From the IMG/VR virus record IMGVR_UViG_3300042866_002947, positions 1-34,260 of that record: DNA of 34,260 bases. One strand, written 5' to 3'. A model generated the notes under the pieces. It ran no database searches and was not told where the DNA came from. It was given only the letters and a program-made list of their open reading frames with translations. Below are positions 30,153 through 32,078 of the stretch, one piece after another. This DNA comes from a virus. Positions within the stretch are counted from its first letter, which is position 1. Each line of letters begins with the position of its first letter. The translations under genes and the position numbers were made by a program.

Positions 30153-30359
30153 TCATTCACCGCTCTGAGTTGAGGTGTTCAGCACGCGGTTCAACTCCGC
30201 CTGCTCCAACGCCTCGATGTCACTCATGCGGTAAAGTACCCGGCGGCCCATCTTGATCGGATACGGCGGACGATTGCGCCCCCGCCATTCTTCCAAGGTG
30301 CGGGGGCTGACCCGCCAACGCTCGGCAAGCTCGAGCGTACTCAAGAAACTCTGTGTCAT
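30153..30359 (-). CDS. Small AlpA/MerR-like helix-turn-helix protein (excisionase-like)
   Basis: A 68-residue protein from the ATG at 30359: MTQSFLSTLELAERWRVSPRTLEEWRGRNRPPYPIKMGRRVLYRMSDIEALEQA, a classic HTH_17/AlpA module with the recognition helix SPRTLEEWR and the wing KMGRRVLYR. Such proteins are phage excisionases, or activators of integrase or early genes. It is the first gene of the leftward early operon, right behind a GTTC motif array. Which of the two roles it has cannot be decided from sequence; the recombinase is a serine type, whose directionality factors vary. Confidence 0.85.
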   Translation of the reverse strand: MTQSFLSTLELAERWRVSPRTLEEWRGRNRPPYPIKMGRRVLYRMSDIEALEQAELNRVLNTSTQSGE

Positions 30360-30404
30360 TCCTGTCTCCATCGGCTGTGACAGGAACACCTTGCCGAGCT
30401 AGCG

Positions 30405-30556
30405 GGGGGAACGTCGTCGGACACAGGGGGAACGCGGGGGGAACAAAATCACCAAACTCATGGCGAGCGAATTCAATATCTTAACCACCCCCTCTACGGA
30501 TTTTGTTCCTCCCTGTTCCCCCTTGTTCTCCCCTGTTCGCCCCTTTTGTTCCCCCA
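30405..30556. repeat. GTTC motif array with 15-bp inverted repeat before the early operon
   Basis: Plus-strand GTTC-n-CC units start at 30505, 30515, 30525 and 30535 (exact 10-bp period) and at 30548; inverted GGGGGAAC units start at 30405, 30426 and 30437. A 15-bp inverted repeat pairs 30436-30450 with 30499-30513 with one mismatch and encloses 48 bases, partly AT-rich. No coding gene is present in 30390-30600. This is probably the early promoter with a regulator-binding array; an origin function is the alternative. Confidence 0.78.
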
Positions 30557-30599: not shown

Positions 30600-30625
30600 A
30601 AAAAAAATCCGCCGAGTCGGCGGAT
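30600..30625 (-). terminator. Rho-independent terminator, minus strand
   Basis: ATCCGCCGA (30607-30615), one loop base, TCGGCGGAT (30617-30625) is a perfect inverted repeat. On the minus strand it is followed by eight T residues (30607-30600). It lies 22 bases past the stop of the gene at 30648-31325 and would separate that transcript from the early operon. Confidence 0.9.
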
Positions 30626-30647: not shown

Positions 30648-31325
30648 CTATTTGGGCGGGTAGACCCAGAAACTTGGTTGCAGCCGATAATTGCCCTTCT
30701 GGTCGTGATCGACAATGTTGCGCCAGGTAATGCGGCGCTTGAACAGATCGCCCGGCTTCATCAAGGCAGAGCCAATCTCCTCAAGCGCCTTCTTGCCGTT
30801 GACCCAAGGCTGCCCCGCTGAATGGGCCGTGTGCAAATGCTGCAGAAATTTTGCCTGCATGATGGTGAAGGCAAAGGATTGGCCTTCCCAGCGGAACGCC
30901 CGGAAGTTCAAAGGCTCCCGCCCCCGTCGGCGGCTAAAGCCACAGCCATCTTCAAAGCGCTGGCGCTCTTCAGCGCCAACCACCAGATCCCCGATCAAGA
31001 CACATTGAGGCTCTTCCAAGCGGACATCGTGGCCGTCCGCCCCCACGAAAACATCCAGCATGGCATCACCATCGCGCAACACGGCAAATACATCGCCTCT
31101 GCGCAACGCAAGAAGCCCCGTATAGGGTTGAATATCGCGCGGGCTGGAGCTAAGGCGGCCACTAACAAAGGGGCGGAGCGGTTCATCAAAGACGCGGATG
31201 GACACCCGAATCTGGGCCGTTTCCGCAAGATATTGCAGGTCAGAGTAGGTTACGCCCCATGTCTGCGTGATCCAGGCCAAATCATGATATTCTCGCTCAA
31301 TCCGCATCCCAGACTCACCCCGCAT
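30648..31325 (-). CDS. Unknown protein next to the repressor, possible regulator
   Basis: A 225-residue protein on the minus strand, divergent from the repressor with 78 bases between. The start ATG at 31325 has AAGGAG at good spacing; an internal ATG at 31307 is possible. The N-terminal half is beta-rich (RIEREYHDLAWITQTWGVTYSDLQYLAETAQIRVSIRVF). The C-terminal part, FTIMQAKFLQHLHTAHSAGQPWVNGKKALEEIGSALMKPGDLFKRRITWRNIVD, reads like a helical or winged-helix DNA-binding region. It has its own strong terminator. Position matches cro-like or antirepressor genes, but the family was not identified. It could also be lysogenic cargo. Confidence 0.68.
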   Translation of the reverse strand: MRGESGMRIEREYHDLAWITQTWGVTYSDLQYLAETAQIRVSIRVFDEPLRPFVSGRLSSSPRDIQPYTGLLALRRGDVFAVLRDGDAMLDVFVGADGHDVRLEEPQCVLIGDLVVGAEERQRFEDGCGFSRRRGREPLNFRAFRWEGQSFAFTIMQAKFLQHLHTAHSAGQPWVNGKKALEEIGSALMKPGDLFKRRITWRNIVDHDQKGNYRLQPSFWVYPPK

Positions 31326-31403
31326 TGTTCTCCTTATGTTCTATCGAATTGACACCATCCAATCAATCTTGTTTTATCCACAGATTGTCCTGGGAGTATC
31401 CAC
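31326..31403. promoter_or_regulatory. Divergent promoter/operator region of the immunity switch
   Basis: Rightward: TTGACA (31349-31354), 17 bases, TTTTAT (31372-31377), then GGGAG (31392-31396) before the repressor ATG. Leftward, TTGATT with 17-base spacing to TAGAAC gives a weaker promoter for the opposite gene. TTATCCACA (31374-31382) overlaps the -10 and equals the DnaA box consensus; TATCCACA recurs at 31397-31404 at the start codon. GTTCTCC (31327) and GTTCTAT (31338) resemble the array near 30.5 kb. Confidence 0.6.
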
Positions 31404-32078
31404 ATGACCCTTGCCCAACTGCCCGAGCGTCTTGATGCAAGGACCTACCAGCTTGGGCTGAAAGTGGCCGAACTCGCTGAGCAAGCGGGTGTGCCCAGAA
31501 GCTTTGTCTATGACATCTTGCGCGGAAAATCGAAGCGCCCCAACCGCGATACGCTTGCCCAGGTCGCTGCGGTCCTAAAGGTGGATGTCGACTGGCTGTT
31601 AACGGGCGCAGGTCAGGTTGAGGGCGAGACGCCTGCCCCATTGGAAGTTGTCGACGAATTCCTGCCCATCCGCTTGGCAGCGCCGGTGGCTTCTATGGGG
31701 GCCGGGGCCGCCGTGGATGACCACGAGGAAGACACTGACAAGACCTATCTCTTCCGCAAGGCTTGGATTGAAGGCCGCCTGCGTGTGTCCCCTGCCAAAC
31801 TACGTTTGCTGCATGTAGAAGGGGACAGCATGGAGCCAACGTTGATGTCGGGGGACATGGTGCTTGTCGACATGACGCGGCAGATCCCAAACCCGCCGGG
31901 GATCTTTGTTCTAAACGACGGCATGGGCCTCGTTGCCAAACGCATTGAGGCCGTGCCCAACACCGACCCTCAACGGATCCGCATTTTGTCGGACAACCCG
32001 CATTACTCTCCCTATGAGCAACTCTTGGATATGGTGAATATTGTCGGCCGCGTGCGCTGGTTTGCCCGCGAAATGTGA
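31404..32078 (+). CDS. LexA/CI-like phage repressor (HTH plus S24 peptidase domain)
   Basis: A 224-residue protein. Residues 10-65 form an XRE-type helix-turn-helix (LKVAELAEQAGVPRSFVYDILRGKS, then DTLAQVAAVLKVDVDWLL). A linker follows with ASMGAGAA near 96-103, where an Ala-Gly bond suits self-cleavage. Residues 125-224 are an S24 peptidase domain with nucleophile Ser142 in GDSMEPTL and the general base Lys179 in GLVAKRIE. It should repress the early operon and be inactivated by RecA-stimulated self-cleavage after DNA damage. Start ATG at 31404 with GGGAG upstream; a consensus-like promoter precedes it. Confidence 0.93.
   Translation: MTLAQLPERLDARTYQLGLKVAELAEQAGVPRSFVYDILRGKSKRPNRDTLAQVAAVLKVDVDWLLTGAGQVEGETPAPLEVVDEFLPIRLAAPVASMGAGAAVDDHEEDTDKTYLFRKAWIEGRLRVSPAKLRLLHVEGDSMEPTLMSGDMVLVDMTRQIPNPPGIFVLNDGMGLVAKRIEAVPNTDPQRIRILSDNPHYSPYEQLLDMVNIVGRVRWFAREM

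Follow-up and report, generated by a model that had tools for sequence, protein, structure and literature searches.

The DNA analysed here is the whole of the virus record IMGVR_UViG_3300042866_002947, the sequence of a temperate phage, 34,260 bp long with 62% GC (hereafter the window), and the element in question is an array of short phased repeats in its early region. The array lies between the first early gene, g225 (30648–31325, minus strand), which is divergent from the gene for a CI-like repressor with HTH_3 and S24 peptidase domains (31404–32078, plus strand), and the second early gene, a small gene of the helix-turn-helix (HTH) family HTH_17 (30153–30389, minus strand, with a likely start ATG at 30359 or 30371), which is directly downstream of it. 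Two opposed clusters make up the array. The right cluster (30505–30555, plus strand) consists of five GTTC(C/T/G)(C/T)CC units starting at 30505, 30515, 30525, 30535 and 30548, with steps of 10, 10, 10 and 13 bp, and the left cluster (30405–30444) consists of inverted GTTCCCCC units starting on the minus strand at 30444, 30433 and 30412, with a degenerate unit, GTCCGACG (GTCC), at 30422 between the last two. A preliminary description of this DNA had reported four units at exact 10 bp spacing facing three inverted ones; the four GTTC units at 30505–30535 are confirmed and are not reproduced by shuffles, and the three inverted units are clear, but the fifth right-hand unit and the degenerate left-hand unit have to be added, and the inverted set does not keep to 10 bp throughout, as its steps are 11, 11 and 10 bp. 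The left cluster can be read as GTTCCCC-N4-GTTCCCC. Between the clusters lies a spacer (30445–30504) of 42% GC, compared with 62% for the phage, which differs between close relatives. The array contains an imperfect inverted repeat (30423–30526) with arms at 30423–30450 and 30499–30526 that are 79% complementary; the 48-base loop described earlier is found at 30451–30498, whereas the 15 bp core, given as an inverted repeat, has one mismatch.

The array of phased repeats is real. The only non-homopolymer 4-mer that forms a chain of four at exactly 10 bp anywhere in the 34 kb window is GTTC (together with its own overlap, TGTT), and elsewhere in the window such a 10 bp chain holds at most two GTTC or GAAC. 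Shuffling the 258 bp intergenic region with its dinucleotides preserved gave an exact-10 GTTC/GAAC four-chain in 0 of 2000 shuffles, and an exact-10 four-chain of any 4-mer in 0 of 400. The array is also the densest GTTC/GAAC stretch of the window; all five window occurrences of the octamer GTTCCCCC/GGGGGAAC fall inside it, and a matrix built from the eight units ranks all eight as top-scoring window-wide, the weakest being tied by two other places. Chance or low complexity is ruled out as the origin of the array by these shuffles and by its positional conservation in relatives. The LexA box of alphaproteobacteria, GTTC-N7-GTTC, was rejected as an identity for the units, as the four-unit chain has N6 and the sole N7 pair in the array is that at 30430/30441.

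Scans with the primase and with an alignment of g225 yielded the relatives: viral loci in two sets of 80, and a further 80 in bacterial genomes, most of which belong to Rhodobacteraceae (Paracoccus, Rhodovulum, Roseibaca, Ruegeria and others). The HTH_17 gene is the next gene after g225 in 174 loci, which represent 135 distinct intergenic regions, and across these regions, mainly from Rhodobacteraceae prophages, arrays of repeat units occupy the same slot. The unit itself is lineage-specific: GTTCCCC in the window, CCAACC/GGTTGG, CATCCCCC/GGGGGATG (the commonest) and GTCCCAC/TCCCACC in others. Same-orientation steps of GGGAT/ATCCC are of 10 bp (76 counts), 11 bp (108), 12 bp (184), 22 bp (88), 23 bp (29) and 43–45 bp (71), which gives a period close to 11 bp (resultant length 0.88 at 11 bp). 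Such spacings of 10–12, 22–23 and about 44 bp in the 135 distinct relatives lend good, if indirect, support to the earlier suggestion of cooperative binding on one face of the helix, and winged-helix proteins arranged head-to-tail are known to target similar arrays. In 25 loci, the array regions (5.2 kb in all) contain GGGGGATG 75 times, compared with nine times for the 189 kb of flanks. A maximum 5-mer count misses the array in about one quarter of the non-redundant loci because the units are degenerate there, and these loci were judged by eye. The intergenic region has no direct DNA similarity to annotated phages.

Within the slot, the units and their immediate context are the conserved parts. 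The most conserved intergenic block is CGA(C/A) followed by the unit, to which the ACGAC directly preceding the last inverted unit of the window belongs (30413–30417, minus strand); CGA(C/A) stands before the last inverted unit in 124 of the 135 distinct relatives. Every unit is identical to that of the window in two near-identical contigs; in the more diverged of the two (L005) these unchanged units span about 100 bp, and the spacer has four substitutions. In class C, the commonest class of relatives, a conserved agCgggATTtcGCAt block follows the last inverted unit and the spacer has 71% GC; it is constant at 48 bp in 35 of the 39 class C arrays that could be measured, a constancy that is compatible with some contact between the two clusters, as in the putative DNA loop suggested earlier. 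All units share a single orientation in some lineages (L155, L156, L158, L238, L242, L244 and L245).

The position of the array within the early region differs from that first proposed. The conserved early promoter of g225 (31338–31366, minus strand; TTGATT at 31366–31361, 17 bp and TAGAAC at 31343–31338) lies between the CI-like gene and g225, about 780 bp from the array, and the pattern TTGATT-N17-TAGAAC is matched in 67 of 121 distinct upstream regions; the same region carries GGAT repeats of its own and is where the CI sites are likely to be. Downstream of g225 is a terminator-like hairpin (30607–30625, minus strand) with a T run after it, and class B relatives have comparable hairpins. 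The array had been placed upstream of the early operon and over its promoter, and neither placement can be kept: it comes after the first early gene and this hairpin, and the second gene follows it at a short distance. Further early genes lie beyond, among them those for an AAA_24 (Sak4-like) protein, a Cas4-type exonuclease, a RecD-like helicase and a Toprim/VapE protein. Two relatives, L161 and L162, have an open reading frame of about 0.94 kb on the opposite strand between g225 and the array, and even there the array adjoins the HTH_17 gene; it thus belongs in cis to the second operon, and the insertion lowers the likelihood of read-through from g225 in these two. The inserted frame (L162:3886–4824, 312 amino acids, and in the same place in L161) looks by eye like a GIY-YIG-type protein.

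A further indication of what the slot does comes from four sister elements with primases 62–70% identical (L022, L034, L063 and L084), in which a sigma-70-like factor replaces the whole CI–g225–array–HTH_17 module before the same replication genes. The Sigma70_r2 protein occupies the slot upstream of g157, with Pfam E values of 4e-6 and 5.8e-6 in L034 and L084 and weaker matches in L022 and L063. No comparable array was found in these sigma-type elements, a negative that rests mainly on reading of the sequence, as the scan missed several known arrays. The presence of a sigma-70-like factor in this slot suggests that the module controls transcription.

Covariation, in the form of pairwise distances between 44 non-redundant loci, was used to assess which protein the array follows. 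Array distance correlates most strongly with that of g225 (r = 0.75), compared with HTH_17 (r = 0.67), CI (r = 0.66, n = 31), g157 (r = 0.43), g259 (r = 0.30), the primase (r = 0.17, nine loci) and the Sak4-like AAA_24 protein (r = 0.08), and the correlation rises to 0.81 for the C-terminal winged helix of g225 alone. In a regression including HTH_17 and the rest of g225, only this C-terminal domain is significant (beta 0.58, p = 0.01), a result that is stable for k-mers of 4, 5 and 6. Since g225 and HTH_17 flank the array, proximity alone offers no obvious explanation of the difference between their correlations. The comparative data therefore favour the protein of 30648–31325, one of the two binders suggested earlier, and make g225 the best candidate for the array-binding protein; the other, the CI repressor, is unlikely, because arrays persist where a pair consisting of an XRE-type regulator and an ImmA/IrrE-like protease stands in place of CI.

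The g225 protein has no match in Pfam or PHROG, its relatives are likewise without a Pfam family, and no receiver domain is detected by Pfam in either. Its AlphaFold model (predicted local distance difference test, pLDDT, 82) has an HTH at its N terminus and a winged helix at its C terminus, together with a beta domain. When modelled separately (pLDDT 86), the C-terminal domain weakly resembles OmpR/PhoB-type domains, of which there are many among the top 50 matches, including ArlR (template-modelling, TM, score 0.55), CosR–DNA, RstA–DNA (0.56), VanR, VbrR–DNA, PhoP and KdpE, with TM scores of 0.46–0.56. Neither the full-length fold compared with the PDB and BFVD nor the sequence profile compared with the PDB gave anything useful. 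In the OmpR/PhoB family all known sites consist of direct repeats to which the proteins bind as tandem dimers, as in the 7 bp motifs with 4 bp spacers of GTTCACC-N4-GTTCACC, and M. tuberculosis PhoP spreads over three and four motifs (PMC4832192). The boxes of PhoB and of M. tuberculosis and S. coelicolor PhoP are 11 bp direct repeats (a 7 bp motif plus a 4 bp spacer), on which tandem head-to-tail winged helices extend cooperatively to three or four motifs (PMC4832192); the left cluster, GTTCCCC-N4-GTTCCCC with steps of 11, 11 and 10 bp, comes close to this, and the period over the relatives is about 11 bp. The array differs in having two opposed clusters, the right one with steps of 10, 10, 10 and 13 bp, while g225 differs from OmpR/PhoB proteins in lacking a detected receiver domain, in its extra N-terminal HTH and in a fold similarity that is only weak.

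From these comparisons we consider that there is about an even chance that the array is a cooperative head-to-tail operator bound by g225 and controlling the second early operon. Transcription from TTGATT-N17-TAGAAC beside CI would yield g225 and end at the hairpin downstream of it. The C-terminal winged helix of g225 would then occupy the units in head-to-tail order, with one protomer for each turn of the helix, and fill both clusters as two opposed cooperative filaments, and g225 on the array would control, and most likely activate, the operon for HTH_17, recombination and replication, the transcript of which would start in the gap that separates the last inverted unit from the HTH_17 gene. 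A more specific version, in which g225 represents a two-headed family with an N-terminal HTH and a C-terminal OmpR-like winged helix, its opposed filaments coupling early transcription to the start of replication and the module being exchanged for a sigma factor in sister elements, seems to us unlikely as a whole. Several results weigh against g225 as the operator-binding regulator. The covariation is built on few independent class changes, genes adjacent to the array are co-inherited with it, and within class C no term of the regression is significant. The structural resemblance of g225 to OmpR-type domains is weak, with no E value below 0.001, the right cluster has 10 bp rather than 11 bp steps, and a consensus search of the DNA between the array and the HTH_17 gene turned up no sigma-70-like promoter.

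Of the other proteins that might bind the array, the HTH_17 protein could do so head-to-tail, thereby autoregulating its own operon, in the manner of phage 186 Apl, lambda Xis, BldC and probably RdfS. BldC binds head-to-tail on direct repeats (PMC5859096), the same mode has been proposed for RdfS (PMC11963761), and Apl sites are repeats at 10–11 bp spacing (PMC7498355); the array is like the sites of these proteins in having several direct repeats spaced by one turn of the helix, near phage early control genes and adjoining a small HTH_17 gene, the best solved profile relatives of which are RdfS (E value 1.5e-6) and BldC. The array is directly upstream of the HTH_17 gene in every lineage and follows it where g225 is separated, and array distance also correlates with that of HTH_17. 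Yet beside the g225 C-terminal domain the HTH_17 term (beta 0.13, p = 0.23) is not significant, and its r in class C is only 0.20, against about 0.5 for g225. Unlike the sites of the Apl/Xis/BldC/RdfS group, the array lies neither at an attachment (att) site nor between CI and the early promoter, it has two opposed sets, the phage encodes a serine recombinase and the covariation favours g225. We regard autoregulation by HTH_17 as possible but unlikely. Operators for the CI-like repressor are a very unlikely identity for the array, even though CI belongs to the same module and its distance correlates with that of the array. The array does recall lambda OR/OL, in that a temperate phage has several repressor-type sites close to its early genes, but the units here are non-palindromic, number up to nine, come after the first early gene and are kept when CI is replaced, the CI–g225 region has its conserved promoter and repeats, and g225 remains the better predictor with CI included (0.52). 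The distance from the promoter and the retention on replacement led us to reject a lambda-type CI operator. In L245 the replacement (L245:1843–2903) consists of an XRE-type regulator and an ImmA/IrrE-like protease (Peptidase_M78), upstream of g225 on the same strand.

Two readings do without a transcriptional operator. The array might be a replication origin, with two iteron sets around a melting region, bound by the Toprim/VapE primase–helicase or by g225 as initiator; the spacer of low GC in a GC-rich phage and the encoded Toprim/VapE protein speak for this, as does, in the window, a likeness to the origins of phage-inducible chromosomal islands (SaPI-like), in which two sets of short iterons surround a spacer of lower GC and a primase–helicase is encoded (PMC6092414). 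Such an origin suits the window alone but suits the family poorly: the array does not track the primase or AAA_24, no comparable array was found, mainly by reading of the sequence, in the sister elements that share the replication genes, the spacer is GC-rich in most relatives and some arrays are unidirectional. Primase-bound iterons were rejected for the lack of covariation with the primase, and we judge an origin improbable on the whole, although the array may be one that g225 binds. Least credible of all is that the array acts as RNA in the minus-strand transcript, as a large hairpin, attenuator or antitermination site, for which the inner arms are able to pair and a terminator-like hairpin lies upstream, but unit spacing differs between the two arms, the single-orientation arrays of several relatives are unable to pair, and the Rfam matches are sub-threshold and of chance level only.

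Phased direct-repeat operators are already known, and what is new here is most likely the combination of two opposed clusters with an undescribed regulator. The locus points to a control module that is widespread in temperate phages of Rhodobacteraceae and has apparently not been described before, comprising an orphan putative regulator without a Pfam or PHROG family, its probable lineage-specific phased operator and, as an interchangeable alternative in the slot, a sigma factor. If g225 does bind the array, the varying units would form a natural series of matched regulator–operator pairs, in which the gain and change of specificity in phased winged-helix filaments could be followed, and the module may be useful for learning what licenses the expression of replication genes in these phages.

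The leader of the HTH_17 gene contains a hairpin, TTCCTGTC/GACAGGAA (30359–30386, minus strand), which covers the ribosome-binding site and start of the gene. The 3′ arm contains the ribosome-binding site, in relatives as well, and the stems vary in sequence by lineage with their pairing preserved, the purine-rich site being 96% paired in predicted folds; this preserved pairing suggests translational control of the HTH_17 gene. In front of g225, a GAAC-N7-GAAC at 31327–31341, which overlaps the early promoter and the ribosome-binding site, resembles the LexA box of alphaproteobacteria, and GAAC-N7-(A/G)AAC is present in 101 of the 121 distinct CI–g225 upstream regions, 18 of them with perfect matches. 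DnaA boxes were rejected for the array itself, as an exact box is nearby only in L076 and one-mismatch matches occur in a few other loci. The sole exact DnaA box of the window (TTATCCACA, 31374–31382) is within the CI–g225 promoter region, and TGTGGA(T/C) is found in this region in 102 of the 121 relatives.
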